A stretch of DNA of 64,000 nucleotides from Leadbettera azotonutricia ZAS-9 (GCF_000214355.1 NC_015577.1:496001-560000), one strand, 5' to 3'; positions 2,201-12,223 are shown, counted from the first letter of the stretch. Numbers and translations are program-made. Notes: generated from the letters alone by a model not told the origin.

Positions 2201-2263
2201 TTCTGATATTACTGTATTTTATTGGACGTTTCAATATTGAAATTCCCATTTAACCCCCCGTAA

Positions 2264-2285
2264 TGCCTCAAAATAAAATCTAACC
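2264..2285 (+). repeat. IS left end, outer repeat
   Basis: TGCCTCAAAATAAAATCTAACC-type copy, same orientation as the inner left copy and inverted relative to both right-end copies. Confidence 0.85.
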
Positions 2286-2297
2286 GAAAGGAACGGC

Positions 2298-2320
2298 TGC
2301 CTCACAATAAAAATCTAACC
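2298..2320 (+). repeat. IS left end, inner repeat
   Basis: Second copy of the terminal motif, 12 bases inside the outer copy and just before the transposase stop codon (2325). Likely a transposase binding site. Confidence 0.82.
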
Positions 2321-2324
2321 GTGG

Positions 2325-3560
2325 CTAAACATCTTCAAGAGCCGAAGCAGCAAGGGACTTCTGGCTCTGAAGCTCGAAGAGAGCCATCAGTGCATGGTTG
2401 ACCAGGCGTTTCTGTTTGACCGGATTGAGACGGGCAGCCCTGCGTCGAAGCTCGTCCTTGAATGTATCAGGAAGGTCAGGGGATTCCAAGAGGCGCCTGT
2501 AGGGCGACTTGGGTTTGTCGTACACCTTCTTGACCCTGGCCCCTATCCGCTCCTTGGCGATTATTTTTTCTGAAGGGTAAAAATAGTTGAGCAGGGGACA
2601 GAGATGGCGGTAGACCTCGGCCAGGGCGTCTCTGGCCTGGAGGGTGTCATAGCGATAGTACCCCACGGTCCTGCGGACGGTCATGTCGTTTTTCTGCTCC
2701 ACGAAGCAGTTGTCGTTCTTGTGGTAGGAACGGCTGCGGGTGAACTGGACGCGGTGTTCGTCACACCATGCCTTGAGCTGGTAATTAATGAACTCCCCGC
2801 CGTTATCGCTGTCGATGCCCAAAAGGGGGAAGGGAAACTGGGAGGGGAAGAGAGACACCTCCTCTTTAACCCAGCGATGGGCCTTGTTGAGGAGGGCGCG
2901 GAGCTCCACCCAGCCTGAATAGACATCGGTGGCATTGAGGGTACAGCAGAACTCGCCTGAGGCGTTTCCGCCGTCATGAACCACCGTATCCAGCTCAAAA
3001 AAGCCCGGTTTCCTCTCATCCCAGGCATAAAAGACACGGATGGGGATCTGGTGCTTGAGGAGGCCACCGGGCCGTGTGGCGCTCCGTCCTTTTAATTCCA
3101 GCTTCTTCCGTTCAGGCTTGAGCTTCCGGTCGATGGTGGCGGGGCTTATGGCAAGCAGCTGCGCCTTTACCTCCTTGGTGATGCCAAACTCCTTGCAGGG
3201 ATTGAGGAAAGGCATCTGTTCCCGGAGGAAGGGGGAAAGCCTTTTCCCGCACATGTAATCAAAGAACTCCCAAATCAGTTTGAGGGCTTTTATCGTTGCC
3301 GCCTGGTAGACCGGCTTCCGCCCTCCCCCTGCTTTTCGTTTTTTAAACGCATCGGCCTTGAGCTTAACAACCCTTCCGGCCAGTCTGACCAGTTCCGTTC
3401 TCCCCCAATTCGCCAAAAGGTGCAGGGCGTATTTCCGGTTGTACCCTGTGTTCTGGACAAACTCGTCCAGGATAGCGGTCTTGCCCTTTTTCCCGGCTTT
3501 GCGATACCGCTTGCTGATTTCTCTGGCAAGCGCCTGTTTCTCTTTCATCGTTAACCCCAT
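2325..3560 (-). CDS. DDE integrase-core transposase (IS481/ISNCY-like)
   Basis: 411 residues. The N-terminal region (about 1-85) is basic and helix-turn-helix-like, including TGYNRKYALHLL. The central rve integrase core shows the DDE signature: D in FFELDTVVHDGG, D in LGIDSDNGGEFIN and E in DNCFVEQKN. This catalyses cut-and-paste or copy-paste movement of the surrounding element. Length and the DSDNGGEF...RSYHKNDN-FVEQKN motif resemble the ISNCY/ISDol1-type and IS481-type transposases; the exact ISfinder family is an inference. The start MGLTMKEKQ has an in-frame ATG four codons later (MKEKQ) that could also serve. No frameshift or stop interrupts the frame, so the element may still be active. 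Confidence 0.88.
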   Translation of the reverse strand: MGLTMKEKQALAREISKRYRKAGKKGKTAILDEFVQNTGYNRKYALHLLANWGRTELVRLAGRVVKLKADAFKKRKAGGGRKPVYQAATIKALKLIWEFFDYMCGKRLSPFLREQMPFLNPCKEFGITKEVKAQLLAISPATIDRKLKPERKKLELKGRSATRPGGLLKHQIPIRVFYAWDERKPGFFELDTVVHDGGNASGEFCCTLNATDVYSGWVELRALLNKAHRWVKEEVSLFPSQFPFPLLGIDSDNGGEFINYQLKAWCDEHRVQFTRSRSYHKNDNCFVEQKNDMTVRRTVGYYRYDTLQARDALAEVYRHLCPLLNYFYPSEKIIAKERIGARVKKVYDKPKSPYRRLLESPDLPDTFKDELRRRAARLNPVKQKRLVNHALMALFELQSQKSLAASALEDV

Positions 3561-3606
3561 TGAGCCCTCCGGTACCCTTGTTACCGGATATAGGCTACAT
3601 AATTTG

Positions 3607-3629
3607 GGTTAGAATTTTATTATGAGGCA
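3607..3629 (-). repeat. IS right end, inner repeat
   Basis: Inverted copy of the terminal motif (GGTTAGA...TGAGGCA) 46 bases upstream of the transposase start, so it may also overlap the transposase promoter. Confidence 0.82.
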
Positions 3630-3641
3630 TTCCCTGTTTTG

Positions 3642-3662
3642 GGTTAGATTATTTATGAGGCA
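3642..3662 (-). repeat. IS right end, outer repeat
   Basis: Inverted outer copy, 12 bases from the inner copy, ending 45 bases before the jetA start codon. Confidence 0.85.
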
Positions 3663-3672
3663 ACGCGCCCCC

Positions 3673-3701
3673 TTTACCCTAAGCTCTTTCCCCACTATTA
3701 T
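3673..3701 (+). promoter_or_regulatory. putative jetA promoter (TTTACC-17-TATTAT)
   Basis: -35-like TTTACC at 3673-3678 (4/6), a 17-nt spacer, and TATTAT at 3696-3701. It fits in the 45 bases between the IS end and jetA. The -10 ends 6 nt before the ATG and there is no Shine-Dalgarno sequence, so a leaderless transcript is likely if this promoter is used. Confidence 0.5.
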
Positions 3702-3707
3702 CAGTAT

Positions 3708-5207
3708 ATGCCCCTTGGTACCGGGGTCTTTGCCACCCTGCCTGAAAATTTCTTTTCCCCTCTGGCACGGGTAAATCGTGAACATTATGCTAATCTTCTG
3801 CTTATCTATTACCGCCTCTTTCAGGAAAATGCCCGGGGCATTGAACGCGAACAGGTAGTGCGTTCTTTTACGGATTATCTTGGCCTCCACCGGAATACCT
3901 TGGCGGACGAATCGCCGGATGCAGGGGATAATACTGATTCCCCGGACGAGGCTGTCCTGCCCGAGGCTGAGCTCCTGACGCCGGAGCTGGACTTCGAAAA
4001 CAGAGAAGAAAATAAAGAATCAACGGAACACCCGGCAAAGTCTCCGTTCCTGAATGACCGCGCCTTGGCAAGCCGTTTTCTCCGCAAGCTTATCAATGCG
4101 GGCTGGCTCGACGAAGAGATCCTGGCTGACTACACAAAAGTCATCAATATTACCCCCCATGGGCGGCCTTTTCTGGAGGCCCTTGCAAAGGTTGATGAAG
4201 GACTAAAAAACGAATACGAAAGCCACGTAGTCGCCATCTATTCCCTGCTTTGCACCGACGCGATTACCGATAACGGTCATTATGCGGTGCGGAACGCCTA
4301 TGTCCATACCCAGGCCCTCATTGATTCCCTTAAAGTGCTTTCCCAGAGCATTAAGGGATATTATGACAGGATTAGCACTGATGCTGCACAATTCGGCATT
4401 TCAGGCATACTCCGCCTGCAATACGATGAATATGCCCCTCAGATCCTTGACGCCGCTTACAAGCGTTTAAAAACCTCGGACAACCTTTCCCGCTACAGGC
4501 CGAAGATTCTCGAGCAGGTAGGGGATCTTCTGCGCAACAATGCCTGGCTGGATACAAGCGCCAGAAAGCTTGCGGTGATGAAGGCCCAAACCCAATTTGA
4601 ATGCAAAAGGCAGCTTGAGGATATGCTCAATGAAATTCGCGACACCCTTAATGCGGTGGACCCCCTGCTGCGCGAAATCGATCACCGGAACAGCCTTTAT
4701 TCGCGATCCAGCACTGAACGGATAAAAGTGCTGCTGGAGCCTGATTCCACCATTGCAGGGAAAATCGCGGCCCTGGTTAAGGAAATCCATGTCGGGAACA
4801 AAGGCCTTTATCACAGGCTGGCACACAGGCTTCACCGGATTAGGGCTTTTGCGCCGGAGTCCCTGTATAAAAGGCAGAAAAAAGAAGCCCCCGATTTTAT
4901 GCAAGCTGTAGCGCCTGCCGACAGGGCAGCCCTCGAAAGGGATAAAGAGCTTTTCATGAACAGGCTTCTTAATCAGCTCGGCATTAAGCGGATAAGCGCC
5001 TGGCTTGATGAGCATGGCGGGCAGGAGAGGCTTCTTTCTTCCAAAGATCTGGTATACGACGAGGCTTCCTTTGTCCGTTTTATCTATTCAGTGCTTTATG
5101 CTGATTCAAGGCAGACCTTCGATTATGGCATAGAAGACAAGCCTGAATATGAATCCATTGACGCCGCAGGGTACGGGGTGCCGGATCTTTTATTAAGGAA
5201 GAAATAA
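3708..5207 (+). CDS. jetA: Wadjet system protein JetA
   Basis: 499 residues. The N-terminus carries LPENFFSPLA (11-20) followed by NREHYANLLLIYYRLF, the signature I associate with the JetA/DUF5716 family. In Wadjet complexes JetA is the kleisin-like subunit bridging the SMC-like JetC heads, and the complex recognises and cleaves small circular DNA, blocking plasmid establishment. An acidic, low-complexity stretch at about residues 67-110 interrupts the winged-helix and helical parts and is probably a flexible linker. jetB follows after 9 bases, so this is the first gene of a tight jetABCD operon. No SD precedes the ATG, but the conserved motif begins at residue 11, so a much later start is unlikely. 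Assignment to a Wadjet type (type III favoured) is from memory of the family and not certain. Confidence 0.85.
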   Translation: MPLGTGVFATLPENFFSPLARVNREHYANLLLIYYRLFQENARGIEREQVVRSFTDYLGLHRNTLADESPDAGDNTDSPDEAVLPEAELLTPELDFENREENKESTEHPAKSPFLNDRALASRFLRKLINAGWLDEEILADYTKVINITPHGRPFLEALAKVDEGLKNEYESHVVAIYSLLCTDAITDNGHYAVRNAYVHTQALIDSLKVLSQSIKGYYDRISTDAAQFGISGILRLQYDEYAPQILDAAYKRLKTSDNLSRYRPKILEQVGDLLRNNAWLDTSARKLAVMKAQTQFECKRQLEDMLNEIRDTLNAVDPLLREIDHRNSLYSRSSTERIKVLLEPDSTIAGKIAALVKEIHVGNKGLYHRLAHRLHRIRAFAPESLYKRQKKEAPDFMQAVAPADRAALERDKELFMNRLLNQLGIKRISAWLDEHGGQERLLSSKDLVYDEASFVRFIYSVLYADSRQTFDYGIEDKPEYESIDAAGYGVPDLLLRKK

Positions 5208-5216
5208 GGAAAAAGG

Positions 5217-5825
5217 ATGTTACAGGATCTTCAGGGTTTGTCCCTTATCACCGAATTGACCGCCTCGGATTTTGATCTGTTTAAAACAGCAGTGCGCACG
5301 CTCCTGGCAAAAACATTCATAATCAGGGGCATAGAAAAAGAACGGGAACTTTATGATTTTGCCATACGCAACGCTTCGCTTTTTGACGCATGGTTTTCCT
5401 GCATGGACGCAAGCCTGGTACGGGACGAAAGCCTCGGGGTGGTAAGCTTCCGGGGAGGCGGCGATACCCGCCTGCGCCTGGGCCGGGAAGAAACTTGCGC
5501 CTTCCTCGTTGCCCGGCTTCTCTATGAAGAAAAGCGGGCGGAGCTTTTCCTCACCGCCTTTCCCACCGTGCGGATTGGCGATTTTGTTGACCGCTACAAT
5601 GCCATGGCTGACGAGAAGCTTAAAAAGACCCGCCAAAAAGAAATCTTCCGCCGCCTCCAGTCCTATAAAGTGATAGCCTTTGATGCTTCCGATTTCGCGG
5701 ACCCCGAGGGGACCATGATCCTCTACCCCAGTCTAGCCATGGGACTTGACAGGGACGGCATTGACGAGCTTATGGCGCAAATTGCGCAGGTAACGGCGGC
5801 GAAGAAAGAGGACAACCCATCATGA
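5217..5825 (+). CDS. jetB: Wadjet system protein JetB (DUF4194)
   Basis: 202 residues, predicted soluble and mainly helical/winged-helix. The segments LAKTFIIRG, LYDFAIRNASLFDAWF, RLRLGREETCAFLVARLLYEEKR and LQSYKVIAF match the general layout of DUF4194 (MukE-like) proteins, the KITE-type subunit that binds the kleisin JetA. The length is usual. It begins 9 bases after jetA, with AAAAAGGATG immediately upstream (weak RBS, very short spacing), and its stop overlaps the jetC start by ATGA, indicating translational coupling. Confidence 0.82.
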   Translation: MLQDLQGLSLITELTASDFDLFKTAVRTLLAKTFIIRGIEKERELYDFAIRNASLFDAWFSCMDASLVRDESLGVVSFRGGGDTRLRLGREETCAFLVARLLYEEKRAELFLTAFPTVRIGDFVDRYNAMADEKLKKTRQKEIFRRLQSYKVIAFDASDFADPEGTMILYPSLAMGLDRDGIDELMAQIAQVTAAKKEDNPS

Positions 5826-8800
5826 TTACCCTTGAACGCGTGCGCCTGGTGAATTGGCATAATTTTGATGATACCCTTATTGCCATAGGAAACCGCTGCC
5901 TTTTTGCAGGCGACAATGGTTCAGGCAAGACCACGATACTCGATGCCATTCAATATGCTATGGCAGCGGATCTTCGCAAGGCCAGGTTCAACGCTGCTGC
6001 AGGTGAGCGCAAGAGCGGCAGGGATCTTTTGGGCTATGTGCGCTGCAAAGTCGGCAGCGATACTACCGATTACATGCGGGGCGATACCGTAGCCCATGTA
6101 ATGCTGGAATTTTCCCGTACCGGTGGAGAAGTTTTATCCGCAGGGGTCTGTGTTGAAGCCTATACAGACGGGAATTGCAATGAACATTTTTGGATGGGGA
6201 GTTTGCCCATTGCTTCGTTAAAAGTGCGTACCGGCCAGGAGCAGCCCCTTAATTTCCGCCAGCTTAAGGACAGCTGGGCCGGCGCCGCCGCTCACGCAAA
6301 CAAAAAGATGGAAACCTTTGAATCGAAAAAACTTTACCTCAGGGAATTCACTGCGGCAATTGGAGTATGGCGGCGCAATATAGATTACAGTCCTTACCTC
6401 GAAGCCTTTACCAGATCCGTGAGTTTTACCCCCATGATCTCGGTGGATCGATTTGTTTGCGATTATATTCTGGAGGAAAAACCTGTCGAAATACAGGACA
6501 TGAAGAATAACCTTGAAAGTTATAAAGAAGCGGAGCGTGAAGCCAAAGGGGCGGTTCAGCGTATAGAAGTGCTTAAAAAAATCAGCGCAAAAGCCGCAGA
6601 ATGGCGCATGTACGAAGGACTCATCCTTAAACAGGAATATCTCATGCTCCGCATTCACCGGGACGAAGAACTTCAAAAAAACCAAAAGGAAGAACGCAAA
6701 CTTTCCGCAGCTGAAGAAAAACTGAAATCCCTGGAGCAAAAAATAGCCGGGCTTAATGAAAGTCGTTTTGAATGGGAAAATGAACTGCGGAAAACCGATG
6801 CCAGCTTGGCTGCCAATGATGCCCATATCCTTTACATGCAGATTGAAGATCGCATTAACAGGCTAAAAAAAGATCTTGAAATCGAAGAACCCAAGGCCGA
6901 ACGCTACCATACCTTAAAAACCCAATGCGAGGCCATGTTGGGCCGGAAATTGAGCGAAAACCCTGCGGAAGACAGCTCAAAGATCGAATCCGAAGAAAAT
7001 CAAGCCCGATCAGAAAAAGACGCCGCCCGCATACAAAAGGAAGAGGCCGCCCTCGCCCTGCGCGAAGCCTCAGCGGAACTGGCCGAACTTGAACGGGGAT
7101 TACTGCGGTATCCCGAAGCGCCGGCAAGCCTTAAAGCAGCACTCGAAAAAGAAGGTATAGCCGCCGCCATTCTTGCCGATATTGCCGATATTACAAACCC
7201 CGATTGGGTGGATGCGGTCGAAGGCTGGCTCAGCACCCGGCGTTTTGCCATTTTGGTAGATCCGAAGGATTTTCAAAAGGCTCTCGAAATTTACGACCGC
7301 CTTCCCCGTCACATATCAGGGGCTTTTCTTCCCAACCTCGAAAAAATGCGGGATGCGGTCGAAAGAAACCCGGCACAGAAAAATTCCCTCGCCTCCCTTG
7401 TGGAAACCGGATCAATCTATGCCCGGCATTACATCGATTTTGTCCTGGGCAATGTAATCTGCGCAGATATCAGGAGCTTGAAAAACTTCGGTTCGGCAGT
7501 AACCAGGGAATGCATGCGTTATTCCGGTTTTACCGCGTCGCGGATAGATCAAAATATCTATAGCCGCCATTATCTTGGCAAGGCAGCCCAAAGGGAACGC
7601 AAAGAATTCCTTATAGCAGAAAAACTGCGGCTTCAAAAAGTTCATGAAGAATCAACAGCAAAGGAACAAGAAGCTGCGCAAAAAGAAGAAGGCTTCCGCA
7701 GGGTAGGCCGCACCCTTATCGATTTAAGTTACCTTCTCCCCTCGGTGGCTGCCACGTTAAAAATGCGCAATGATTTGTCAGTGGCTGAAAATGAACTTTC
7801 GGCCATTGACACCAGGAGTTTCAAGGAACTCCAGGAAAAACGGGACAGCCTTGCAGAACGCATACGCGTAAGCGGTGAAGGATTGCAAAGCTGTTACAAA
7901 GAGCAGGGAAGCGAAAATCAAATCATTATCGACTGCCGTGCTTCAATGGAAAATATAAAAACCGCAATTGGGGATCGTGAACACGCAATAGGGCTTTTTG
8001 CCGAAAACCATCCCTTCGAAATAAGCGAATGCGAGGATTATGCGGAAAAACAGCTTAGCAAAGAAAATATTTACGACCTTTCGAGCAAATATGAATCGAA
8101 TTTAAAGGGATATCAAACAAGCGTCAAAAACCGCCGTGCCGAATATGCTGACCTTGTCCACAACTACGACAGGGATTTTCATACCTATCTCCCCATAGAC
8201 CCTGGGGAAAATGACGAGGCGGAAAAACTGTTAAAACGCCTCGAAACATCCGAGCTACCTGAATACCGCGAAAAGATAGAAAAAGCCAAACGGGATGCCG
8301 AAAAGGAATTCAAAGAGCATTTCATTTCCAATCTTAACGAGAACATAGAAATAGCGCGCGAAAGCTTTAAGGAGATAAACGAAATACTCCGCTCCCTTTC
8401 TTTTGGCCGCGACCAGTACCGCTTTGCCCTGGAAGAAAAAAGCGACCGCAAGGGGCAAATCGAAATTATCAAGAGAACCGCAGCCATCCCCACCATGGAC
8501 GACGGTCTCTTTTCCCAAATCAACGACCCCGAAGAATACAAAGCCGTGGAAATGCTTTTCGAAAAAATCCTCACCACCGACCTCGATTCCCCGGAAATGC
8601 GGAGCATCTGCGATTACCGCACCTACTTCCAGTACGATATCAAAATCCGCGCCACCGATACCATCGATCAAATCACCGGCAAGCCTATGGACAGCTCCCT
8701 CTCCAAAGTGATTCGTGAGAAATCGGGCGGCGAAACCCAGACTCCCTACTATGTCGCCATTGCCGCAAGCTTCTACCGCTTTTTCAAAGACCGCCCCGAA

Positions 8801-9034
8801 GAAACCATACGCCTCGTAATGTTTGACGAAGCCTTTAACCGCATGGACGACGAACGGATTATCAAAATACTCAATTTTTATAAAGACCTCAATATCCAGC
8901 TTATCAGCGCCGTACCTCCTGAAAAAATCGAAGCCATCGCCCCCCAGGTAGACCGCACGAACCTCGTTGTGCGCCACGGCTATTCTGCGCGGGTCTGGGA
9001 TTTCCACGGGGAAGCCGGGAAAGCAAAAGCATGA
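5822..9034 (+). CDS. jetC: Wadjet SMC-like ATPase JetC
   Basis: 1070 residues. The N-terminal Walker A is GDNGSGKTT (30-38) after the typical LVNWHNF start of SMC/MukB/SbcC-type ATPases. A long charged, coiled-coil-prone region follows (roughly 230-900), with a hinge-like middle around 430-560. The C-terminal head has the ABC signature KSGGETQ (about 967-973) and Walker B VMFDEAFNRMD (about 999-1009). JetC is the motor that loads on DNA and extrudes loops until JetD cuts. The gene overlaps both jetB and jetD by 4 bases (ATGA), so B-C-D stoichiometry is probably coupled in translation. All ATPase motifs look intact. Confidence 0.92.
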   Translation: MITLERVRLVNWHNFDDTLIAIGNRCLFAGDNGSGKTTILDAIQYAMAADLRKARFNAAAGERKSGRDLLGYVRCKVGSDTTDYMRGDTVAHVMLEFSRTGGEVLSAGVCVEAYTDGNCNEHFWMGSLPIASLKVRTGQEQPLNFRQLKDSWAGAAAHANKKMETFESKKLYLREFTAAIGVWRRNIDYSPYLEAFTRSVSFTPMISVDRFVCDYILEEKPVEIQDMKNNLESYKEAEREAKGAVQRIEVLKKISAKAAEWRMYEGLILKQEYLMLRIHRDEELQKNQKEERKLSAAEEKLKSLEQKIAGLNESRFEWENELRKTDASLAANDAHILYMQIEDRINRLKKDLEIEEPKAERYHTLKTQCEAMLGRKLSENPAEDSSKIESEENQARSEKDAARIQKEEAALALREASAELAELERGLLRYPEAPASLKAALEKEGIAAAILADIADITNPDWVDAVEGWLSTRRFAILVDPKDFQKALEIYDRLPRHISGAFLPNLEKMRDAVERNPAQKNSLASLVETGSIYARHYIDFVLGNVICADIRSLKNFGSAVTRECMRYSGFTASRIDQNIYSRHYLGKAAQRERKEFLIAEKLRLQKVHEESTAKEQEAAQKEEGFRRVGRTLIDLSYLLPSVAATLKMRNDLSVAENELSAIDTRSFKELQEKRDSLAERIRVSGEGLQSCYKEQGSENQIIIDCRASMENIKTAIGDREHAIGLFAENHPFEISECEDYAEKQLSKENIYDLSSKYESNLKGYQTSVKNRRAEYADLVHNYDRDFHTYLPIDPGENDEAEKLLKRLETSELPEYREKIEKAKRDAEKEFKEHFISNLNENIEIARESFKEINEILRSLSFGRDQYRFALEEKSDRKGQIEIIKRTAAIPTMDDGLFSQINDPEEYKAVEMLFEKILTTDLDSPEMRSICDYRTYFQYDIKIRATDTIDQITGKPMDSSLSKVIREKSGGETQTPYYVAIAASFYRFFKDRPEETIRLVMFDEAFNRMDDERIIKILNFYKDLNIQLISAVPPEKIEAIAPQVDRTNLVVRHGYSARVWDFHGEAGKAKA

Positions 9035-10257
9035 CCACCTGGGAAGATCATATACTCAACGCCTTTATAGAGCGTTACCCTTTTTCGGTCTCCGCCAAAG
9101 TCAATAGCGCGGATTTTCCTGCGGCAAACCATAGGCTGCGTATTCCTGCCGCAAAAATCTTCCCCGGCTTTGATAACGCCCCGCCTGACGAAAAGGAATC
9201 TTTCCTCGACGCTGTGGAATCCCTTGAGACACAAGGGTTCGTCTCCCTTGTCTGGGCACGCCACAGAAAAGGCGAGCTGCTTTCCGCCATTGTCTGCCTC
9301 GACATGGAAAAGCTTTATCAATTAAGAAAAAGGCTTTCGCCTAAAGCCGCTGCGGAAGAGGCACGGGAAGCGGCGGAACAAATCGTTTCACCCAATGATA
9401 CCTTGGGCGCTTTTTTCGCTTTCCTTGCCAATGGCATCACAGCCCTTGATGCCGCCAAGGGGATCAATGCAGAATCGGTGCACGATTTGGCAAAACTCTT
9501 TACGGCAATTTCCAAACCCATAAACCTTACCCTTCGCGCCCTGTCAGTCTCGCTTTATAATGATTCCAAAAGGCTCGAAGCCCTTATTAATTCATTCAAG
9601 ACGATTTTTGCCAGGGCAGAAAAACAGGGAATATCCATTCCTGAATTTTCGTTTCTTGACCGTTCCTTTCCTGAAACTTCCATAGCCGGAAAAATTATCA
9701 TCAATATTGAAGATTCTCGGCCCCTGGCCAATGAAAACGGCGTAATACTCATCCTGCCCCTTATCACCATTCAAAAAATCAGATCCATAACAGGCTATTG
9801 CTCCGTACCCGCCGCAGGTAAATCTCCCTCGGTATTAATGATAGAAAACAAGGAAACGTTCTTTACCCTTGCCGCCTCTTCGCACAAATACACCTGCCTG
9901 CTCTATATTGGCGGCCATCCCAACAGGGCGGTACGCGCCCTGGCAAAGGTTCTTGCAAAATCGGGCTTTGCTTTCTTCCATGCAGGCGACCTTGACCCCG
10001 AGGGCATACTCATTTTGCAGGAGCTTCAGGATATAGCAGGCCAAACCGTAACGCCCGTATGCATGGATGCCTCAACCTTCGATGGGTATCTTCAGCATGG
10101 CAGGAAGCTTGAGCCGTCCATGCTGAAGCGTATCAGCCTGATAAAAGACGAAACCCGCGCCCTTCCGGGCATACGGGAGCTTATCCAAAGAATTGAAACA
10201 AGCGGCAAAGGGATCGAGCAGGAGATTATTGAATACAAGCCCTGGACTCTTGACTAA
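9031..10257 (+). CDS. jetD: Wadjet nuclease subunit JetD (Toprim-like, DUF2220)
   Basis: 408 residues. The C-terminal half carries the Toprim-type motifs: SVLMIENKETF with glutamate about E272, and HAGDLDPEGI with DxD at about D320 and D322. The fold is that of topoisomerase VI A/Spo11-like subunits. In Wadjet systems JetD is the endonuclease that cleaves circular DNA held by JetABC. The N-terminal part (about 1-120) would be the DNA-binding/arm region. The start overlaps the jetC stop (ATGA). The stop codon lies at the edge of the tetR operator, so the defence operon abuts the next promoter with no terminator seen between. Confidence 0.88.
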   Translation: MTTWEDHILNAFIERYPFSVSAKVNSADFPAANHRLRIPAAKIFPGFDNAPPDEKESFLDAVESLETQGFVSLVWARHRKGELLSAIVCLDMEKLYQLRKRLSPKAAAEEAREAAEQIVSPNDTLGAFFAFLANGITALDAAKGINAESVHDLAKLFTAISKPINLTLRALSVSLYNDSKRLEALINSFKTIFARAEKQGISIPEFSFLDRSFPETSIAGKIIINIEDSRPLANENGVILILPLITIQKIRSITGYCSVPAAGKSPSVLMIENKETFFTLAASSHKYTCLLYIGGHPNRAVRALAKVLAKSGFAFFHAGDLDPEGILILQELQDIAGQTVTPVCMDASTFDGYLQHGRKLEPSMLKRISLIKDETRALPGIRELIQRIETSGKGIEQEIIEYKPWTLD

Positions 10258-10292: not shown

Positions 10293-10880
10293 ATGGGGCA
10301 AAAACGCGGCCTGAATAAAGAAACGATTCTCTCTGCTGCGCTGCTGATTACCGAATCAGAAGGCTTTGAAAATTTAAGCCTGCAAAACCTGGCAGCAGCC
10401 CTTGAGGTGAAACCGCCGTCCCTGTATAACCATGTCGCCGGTCTGGACGACATACGGGTACAGGTTGCCCAATCGGCTCTTGAGCAGATGGAAAAAAGCA
10501 TACGCGACCGGGTTGTGGGCCGCTCTCATGAGAAGGCGATCAGGGAAATTGCAGCCGCTTATCGTGATTTTGCCAGGAAACACCCTCAATTGTATAAAGT
10601 TCTCTCAATTATTGCCCGGATAGACGATGGAGAATTACGGGAAACAGCCCATTCCCTGCAAAACACCTTTCGCAGGATATTGGAACCTTACCGATTGATA
10701 CCCCGGGACGAAACACATTTTATCCGCTTTATGCGCAGCAGCCTCCATGGTTTCGTATCCCTCGAGGCCATGGGGTTTTTCCGGCATGGCAGGGGGGTAA
10801 ACAAGGATTTGAGCTTTATCGAAATGACCAACATGTTTATCGATATACTCAAGAGTTATACAAATAGGAAGCACCCATGA
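10293..10880 (+). CDS. TetR/AcrR family transcriptional regulator
   Basis: 195 residues. The N-terminal HTH has KETILSAALLITESEGFENLSLQNLAAALEVKPPSLYNHV (about 9-48), the typical TetR DNA-binding helix pattern. The C-terminal helical domain resembles the TetR_C_33/WHG type that binds small ligands. It overlaps the following MATE gene by 4 bases (ATGA) and has a palindrome in its own promoter, so it most likely represses its own operon and responds to a drug or metabolite exported by the MATE pump. No Shine-Dalgarno sequence precedes the ATG. Confidence 0.88.
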   Translation: MGQKRGLNKETILSAALLITESEGFENLSLQNLAAALEVKPPSLYNHVAGLDDIRVQVAQSALEQMEKSIRDRVVGRSHEKAIREIAAAYRDFARKHPQLYKVLSIIARIDDGELRETAHSLQNTFRRILEPYRLIPRDETHFIRFMRSSLHGFVSLEAMGFFRHGRGVNKDLSFIEMTNMFIDILKSYTNRKHP

Positions 10881-12223
10881 ACACAGATGAACAAAATCAG
10901 AAATTCCTCAAAATGACCACCGCTCCTGTGGGACGGCTTATTACGAGTCTTGCCATCCCCTCGATTTTAATAATGCTGATTACCTCAATTTACAACATGA
11001 CGGATACATTTTTCGTAAGCTTCCTGGGGACCAGCGCCACAGCGGCAGTGGGCGTTGCCTTCCCCCTTATGGCGGTGATACAGGCTGTCGGATTTTTCTT
11101 CGGTCATGGAACGGGGAATTACATAGCCCGGGAACTGGGCGCACAGCACTACAAAAACGCTTCCAAAATGGCTGCCACAGGTTTTTATTCAGCCTTTATT
11201 GCAGGCGCGGTCCTGGCATGCTTTGGCTCTTTAGGTTTAGACCCTCTTGTCCGCCTGCTCGGCGCTACGGATACCATACTCCCCTTTGGGCGCGACTACC
11301 TGCGTTTCATCCTTATCGGCGCCCCTTTTATGATGTGTTCCCTGATGCAGAACAACCTTCTGCGCTATCAGGGCAGTTCTTTTAACGGCATGATTGGCAT
11401 GGTAGGCGGGGCGGTTATCAATATGGGCCTGGACCCGCTGTTCATTTTCGTATTCCATTGGGGGATTGCAGGGGCTTCCCTTGCAACGTGCTTAAGCCAG
11501 GTTGTCAGTTTCGGCCTCCTCTTTATAGGCTCAACCAAAAAAGACAATGTGCGCATACAATTAAAATACTTTTCCCCCAGCATCGCAAACTATAAAGAAA
11601 TGGTAAGAGGCGGCCTTCCGTCCCTGGTGCGCCAGGGCATAGCAAGCGTGTCAGGCATATTCATGAATAATTTTGCCGGTTCTTTTGGCGATGAAGCAAT
11701 TGCGGCCCTTACCATTGTGCAGCGGGTGTTCAACATGGCCGGCTCCCTGGTCGGCGGCATAGGGCAGGGGTTCCAGCCTGTATGCGGTTTCAATTATGGC
11801 GCAAAATTATACAAGCGGGTAAAAGAAGGCTTCCGCTTCTCCTTCCTTGCCATGACCATCCCGCTCATACCCTTGGGCCTTCTCGGCTTTGTCTTTGCCC
11901 CCCAAATAATCGCGCTCTTCAGGCCCGACGATCTCCTGCTTATAAAAATCGGGACCCAGGCGTTCCGGTTTCAGTGTTCTACCATACTTTTTTTGGGCTG
12001 GATTACTATCAACAATATGATGATGCAGACCATGGGAAAAGCCTTCAAGGCAAGCCTCCTTGCCTTTGCCCGCCAGGGGCTATTTATGTTGCCCCTGCTA
12101 TTCATTCTGACCCCGATCTTTGGGCTCACCGGCATTCTGGCCAGCCAGCCAGCTGCCGACATTGCGACATTTGCATTATCAATACCCCTCTCTGCCAGTG
12201 TTTTTAAAGAGATGAAGGAATAG
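10877..12223 (+). CDS. MATE family efflux transporter
   Basis: 448 residues with about 12 hydrophobic helices in two MatE halves. Features include LITSLAIPSILIMLITSIYNMTDTFFVS near the N-terminus and the internal repeat RGGLPSLVRQGIASVSG. It is an inner-membrane antiporter for toxic organic cations or metabolites. It is translationally coupled to the TetR gene (ATGA overlap), which suggests substrate-induced expression. It differs clearly from the MATE protein at the left edge of the window, so they are not recent duplicates. Confidence 0.9.
   Translation: MNTDEQNQKFLKMTTAPVGRLITSLAIPSILIMLITSIYNMTDTFFVSFLGTSATAAVGVAFPLMAVIQAVGFFFGHGTGNYIARELGAQHYKNASKMAATGFYSAFIAGAVLACFGSLGLDPLVRLLGATDTILPFGRDYLRFILIGAPFMMCSLMQNNLLRYQGSSFNGMIGMVGGAVINMGLDPLFIFVFHWGIAGASLATCLSQVVSFGLLFIGSTKKDNVRIQLKYFSPSIANYKEMVRGGLPSLVRQGIASVSGIFMNNFAGSFGDEAIAALTIVQRVFNMAGSLVGGIGQGFQPVCGFNYGAKLYKRVKEGFRFSFLAMTIPLIPLGLLGFVFAPQIIALFRPDDLLLIKIGTQAFRFQCSTILFLGWITINNMMMQTMGKAFKASLLAFARQGLFMLPLLFILTPIFGLTGILASQPAADIATFALSIPLSASVFKEMKE

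Follow-up and report, generated by a model that had tools for sequence, protein, structure and literature searches.

Within a window of 64,000 nucleotides of the Leadbettera azotonutricia ZAS-9 genome (NC_015577.1:496001-560000, with positions counted from its first base), four plus-strand genes, jetABCD, lie beside a complete insertion sequence (IS). jetA (3708-5207) encodes a 499-residue kleisin-like JetA1 protein (PADLOC JetA1, E-value 5.5e-81; Pfam JetA PF18982, 1.2e-100), jetB (5217-5825) a 202-residue DUF4194 or MukE-like JetB1 protein (PADLOC JetB1, 6.5e-32; PF13835, 7.3e-16), jetC (5822-9034) a 1070-residue SMC-like ATPase, JetC1 (PADLOC JetC1 PDLC00519, 4.5e-283; PF13555 and PF13558, SbcC_Walker_B/AAA_29), and jetD (9031-10257) a 408-residue Toprim nuclease, JetD1 (PADLOC JetD1, 1.8e-40; PF09983, JetD_C). 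Open reading frame calling gave ATGA overlaps at the jetB/jetC and jetC/jetD junctions and a gap of 9 bases between jetA and jetB. JetA1, JetB1, JetC1 and JetD1 were the top PADLOC profiles for the respective genes, which form one operon in the canonical order. The PADLOC and Pfam searches bear out the original prediction, made from the DNA alone, that four coupled genes encode a Wadjet system with a kleisin-like JetA carrying the motif LPENFF (JetA residues 11-16) and a DUF4194 JetB.

In the Wadjet family JetABC acts as a DNA loop extruder and JetD as the nuclease that cuts small circles. The prediction had called the JetC ATPase and JetD nuclease motifs intact. The JetC Walker A (GDNGSGKT, residues 30-37), signature (SGGE, 968) and Walker B (LVMFDEAF, 998) motifs were invariant or nearly so in 17 aligned sequences, and JetD residues E272, D320, D322 and the pair E396/E398 were invariant in 16. 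As searches of PDB sequences with the single Jet proteins and with a JetD profile gave no matches, a fold search was needed to find a structural match for JetD. The AlphaFold model of JetD (mean predicted local distance difference test score, pLDDT, of 85) had as its best solved match the MksG nuclease of C. glutamicum (8b7f, probability 1.00, E-value 7e-10), followed by topoisomerase VI-A and Spo11. The prediction had named a JetC closer to MukB or SbcC, or a JetD model lacking the Toprim fold, as results that would speak against it; the best JetC profile was that of the Wadjet SMC protein and the JetD model has the Toprim fold. By motif the conserved JetD acidic residues resemble those discussed for MksG, namely the metal-binding E236 and D279 together with the pair E349/E351 (PMC10123090). 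Given the profile matches, the conserved JetC and JetD residues and the JetD fold match, jetABCD (3708-10257) is, by sequence and predicted fold, a complete and intact type I Wadjet operon. It has the A-B-C-D order, four protein families, catalytic residues and Toprim fold of the type I systems (JetABCD; EptABCD; MksBEFG of C. glutamicum) and differs from them in two respects: in this spirochaete lineage a long, acidic and hypervariable insert stands close to the JetA N-terminus, and the jetA mRNA is probably leaderless. The operon is a further example of a known system in one more host, with nothing new in kind.

The IS upstream of jetA (2259-3667, minus strand) is complete, 1409 bp long and ISLbi1-like (ISNCY), its limits being set by comparison of copies and by the target duplications, and the transposase-5' end faces jetA. 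It encodes a DDE (rve) transposase of 411 residues (2325-3560, minus strand; PF00665) with D191, D252 and E288; D191 and E288 were invariant and D252 nearly so among 24 sequences. The IS outer ends read CGTAATGCC...GGCAACGCG, and the element is flanked by identical 5-bp target duplications, CCCCC, on the left (2254-2258) and on the right (3668-3672). Directly after the right duplication comes the -35 box of the predicted jetA promoter (TTTACC, 3673-3678, plus strand), then after 17 bp the -10 box (TATTAT, 3696-3701, plus strand), with the jetA ATG 6 bases 3' of the latter. Hence position 3673, which had been taken as the operon start, belongs to the -35 box and the jetA gene starts at 3708. 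The intact IS reported near jetA is real, but it ends at 3667, so that 40 bases rather than 45 separate it from the ATG, the first 5 of these being the target duplication. The layout TTTACC-N17-TATTAT-N6-ATG is identical in a close relative that lacks the IS (L019), and in many more distant ones a TTGACA hexamer precedes a -10-like box that lies just 5' of the jetA ATG. As it is present in relatives without the IS, the jetA promoter is, on this comparative evidence, native and older than the insertion. Its spacing from the start codon makes a leaderless jetA mRNA probable. At 32 of the 82 insertion sites described below the distance from the -10 box to a start codon is 5-9 bases, so that leaderless mRNAs may be frequent among these treponemes.

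The same geometry was found throughout the genome, which carries about ten full IS copies of 99-100% identity. All 11 copies with a readable right end are alike in that beyond the transposase-5' end, without exception, come first 5 bp and a -35-like hexamer and then, 15-18 bp further on, a -10-like hexamer. The -35 hexamer is TTGACA in five of these and a near version in the others, and in one copy (L110) the -10-like hexamer is weak. Wherever both IS ends are present, the 5 bp before the -35 hexamer are the target duplication, which was identical on both sides in 8/8 copies measured. Promoter scores were 7-11 for the right flank and 1-5 for the left flank of the eight copies measured. One IS copy lies before a tRNA-Ala gene.

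Related genomes gave a larger set of 82 non-redundant Treponematales sites, the copies of this genome included, at which the transposases are 37-100% identical to that of the window. A score of at least 9/12, in matches to TTGACA-N17-TATAAT, was reached at offset 5 by 44 of the 82 sites and at the other offsets tested by 0-2, and a score of at least 8/12 by 54 sites at offset 5 versus 0-3 of 82 elsewhere; shuffled flanks reached at least 9/12 in 0.09% of cases. As IS ends were found automatically, mis-called ends (e.g. L125 and L130) make these counts conservative. Sequence information was concentrated at flank positions 6-11 and 29-34. Among the clear promoters the -35 hexamer lay at offset 5 in 47/53, whereas the -10 hexamer was at its modal place in only 38/53, and this greater constancy points to the -35 hexamer as the anchor that sets the insertion.

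The densest sample came from a distant complete spirochaete genome of 2.5 Mb (G395), in which one IS has 95 exact right ends. We read 82 unique sites there and left out 11 that abut another IS copy or other repeat, which gave 71 usable sites. All 71 have T at position 6 together with a -10 hexamer of at least 4/6 at 16-18 bp, and 65 read TTG. Both hexamers match at 4/6 or better at 60 of the 71 sites, a criterion satisfied at 0.45% of downstream positions. Downstream of 46/71 sites there is a ribosome-binding site with a start codon, compared with 9/71 on the reverse strand. Of eight loci inspected for tRNA genes, seven have one after the insertion. This genome (L239-L328) also has head-to-tail tandem IS copies about 1.4 kb apart, some of which share a 5-bp duplication; these probably arose by repeated insertion at one promoter. 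At four of its loci (L240, L246, L277 and L292) the IS ends abut another repeat, which starts TGTCGAAAACAATTTAAAATGTC and is not promoter-like.

A fixed 5-bp distance, a fixed orientation, a 5-bp duplication and hexamers about 17 bp apart were seen over some 150 sites in many genomes. We conclude, with a probability of roughly 85%, that the jetABCD genes form an intact type I Wadjet operon with a promoter of its own, and that the adjacent IS went in exactly 5 bp before the -35 box of this promoter because the lineage of its transposase targets σ70 promoters. The neighborhood of IS and Wadjet genes, which the original prediction had flagged as unusual, would thus be due to the target preference of the IS. 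Several observations weigh against this conclusion. The cut-off of at least 4/6 for both hexamers was passed by 48 of the 82 Treponematales sites and missed by 34; the failing sites are partly mis-called ends, 4-bp offsets and nested or decayed copies, and L088, L091, L121 and L140 are among the true exceptions. Some actinobacterial copies precede TTG-type -35 boxes, although these amount to only a handful of sites, and proteobacterial relatives use a different target. As the latter do so, promoter targeting is best regarded as a property of the lineage.

Three other accounts of the locus fare much worse. The Jet proteins might belong to a chromosome-organizing condensin of the MukBEF/Mks type with a Toprim partner rather than to plasmid defense. 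Wadjet systems sense and cut small circular DNA (PMC10586767), a role that is predicted here from sequence, and the subunits resemble MukFEB in the descriptions of the profile models; however, the type I Jet profiles are best for all four genes, which stand in canonical order with an intact nuclease, and we consider a condensin very unlikely. The position of the promoter immediately outside the IS end would also fit an IS that carries an outward promoter driving jetABCD. Both hexamers lie outside the duplication, they differ between sites, and relatives that lack the IS have the jetA promoter too, so that a promoter within the IS was rejected as the source of these hexamers and has only a few chances in a hundred of being the explanation. 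Finally, a site just upstream of a -35 box is a low-cost one, and insertion could have been random with selection then purging the copies that harmed genes. Selection would explain neither the single-base register seen in the offset counts nor the one orientation, and the other flank shows nothing; hence chance and selection alone are excluded, and selection as sole cause, refuted by the register, is the least credible of the three.

How the transposase would recognize a promoter is less certain. It could dock on the RNA polymerase holoenzyme, the likeliest contact being σ region 4 at the -35 box, or it could read the promoter DNA itself; by either route insertion just upstream of the -35 box would let the core promoter and gene survive. 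We lean toward docking on σ70 polymerase, because the hexamers match the σ70 consensus, the spacer varies as σ70 allows, sites with a weak -35 and a good -10 hexamer are still used, and kin with a similar geometry may use protein-bound dif sites. Direct binding of TTGACA-N17-TATAAT-like DNA by helix-turn-helix domains of the transposase, without RNA polymerase, is possible but appreciably less probable. It would accord with sequence information that is clear only at the two hexamers, with an IS that encodes no helper protein, and with a 411-residue transposase whose long N-terminal region could bind DNA. It would, however, demand convergence on both σ70 hexamers and their natural spacing while tolerating spacers of 15-18 bp, and at several sites a good -10 hexamer is paired with a poor -35 hexamer (e.g. 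L103, L154, L155 and L166). A transposase model built from the single sequence had a pLDDT of 39 and was not used. The nearest mechanistic parallel is offered by the yeast retrotransposons Ty3 and Ty1, which the RNA polymerase III transcription machinery guides to precise positions upstream of genes; they are, however, eukaryotic retroelements, another type of element.

Relatives of the transposase put this target preference in context. The transposase is 38% identical to those of ISLbi1 and of ISBj12 over 94-99% of its length, the end sequences of this ISNCY group are similar, and plasmid-borne relatives are annotated ISNCY, ISLbi1 or ISBj12; a search of viral contigs gave no relatives of the transposase. 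In the transposase tree most promoter-type Treponematales sequences form a supported clade (24 rows, 98/93), whereas L150 and the distant L214 have no resolved place; the dif-like (100/100) and proteobacterial (100/100) rows are separate. ISLbi1 and its close kin lie beside NCCGATAA-N6-TTATGTC-like sequences (L172, L215, L217, L229, L231, L232 and L238), a target that seems, from its sequence, to resemble a dif site. In eight genomes searched with at most one mismatch this motif occurred 2-12 times per genome versus 0-5 times for the reversed pattern, and six occurrences adjoin an IS copy. Because three insertions of ISLbi1 are reported to lie within coding regions (PMC2229662), we treat dif-like targeting as a lead only. 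ISBj12 and its rhizobial kin share a third target, TCATCC(T)GATNGTCGCGCTA, also written TCATCCTGATTGTCGCGCTA (L174, L175, L177, L184, L185, L189 and L203), and the left flank of L175 is the reverse complement of TCATCCTGATTGTCGCGCTA.

A known group with dif targets is the ISAjo2 group of the IS1202 family (PMC10132070). Our IS shares with it a single DDE transposase, a 5-bp duplication, insertion in a fixed orientation at a distance of 5 bp from a specific site, and an end repeat that recurs inside either end (PMC10132070). However, ISAjo2 inserts beside dif/pdif on the XerC side and this lineage beside σ70 promoters; the ends here begin 5'-CG, not 5'-TGT (5'-TGT...ACA-3'); and E288 is followed by QKNDMTVR, so that seven residues past the catalytic E this transposase has V instead of Q. 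Only retroviral-type integrase cores were among the transposase profile matches listed, and the TnsB-like architecture claimed for ISAjo2 was not seen here. If this IS lineage finds its sites via σ70 polymerase and the sister subclade inserts with much the same geometry next to dif-like (XerC/XerD) sites, then targeting of DNA-bound host proteins, with switches between complexes, could be a general strategy of the transposase group, a generalization to which we give slightly better than even odds.

The operon itself was compared across relatives, as had been proposed together with the examination of the IS in related strains. Of 200 genomes sampled from the same family, 69 had JetA, and these cover 36 of 57 genera. 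The relatives, some close (JetC 88% identical) and others at 53-62%, are largely Treponema and other spirochaete assemblies, and a second, distant JetA type also occurs within the family. In one relative (L035, 1403-4268) jetD lies upstream of jetA in the order D-A-B. The acidic low-complexity linker noticed in JetA is real, with 16 acidic and 3 basic residues among the 49 of positions 67-115, but it is not unusual, being a hypervariable insert of widely varying length that is common to this spirochaete JetA lineage. A short E-(L/I/F)-(D/A)-F motif was kept within it in 14 of 16 aligned sequences, and the distant JetA proteins examined have the insert only in a short version. With its conserved motif the insert could be a docking or DNA-mimic segment. 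MATE transporter genes flank the IS-jet segment at 463-1836 and 10293-12223, the downstream one behind a TetR gene. The TetR-MATE pair 3' of jetD was rejected as part of the jet operon, as it lies beside the operon in no relative examined.

Site-specific IS elements are already known, whereas no promoter-targeting IS was found in the open-access literature, a survey that did not cover ISfinder and closed journals, and within that scope a promoter-specific IS is new. Target choice by DDE transposases is an open question that a small one-gene IS makes directly testable. If our reading is true, bacteria would have, in a single-protein transposon that lands next to promoters with base-pair precision, a counterpart of Ty3. 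The spread of a high-copy IS (95 right ends in a 2.5-Mb genome) without gene breakage would then be explained, and the IS copies would be natural promoter markers in poorly studied spirochaetes.

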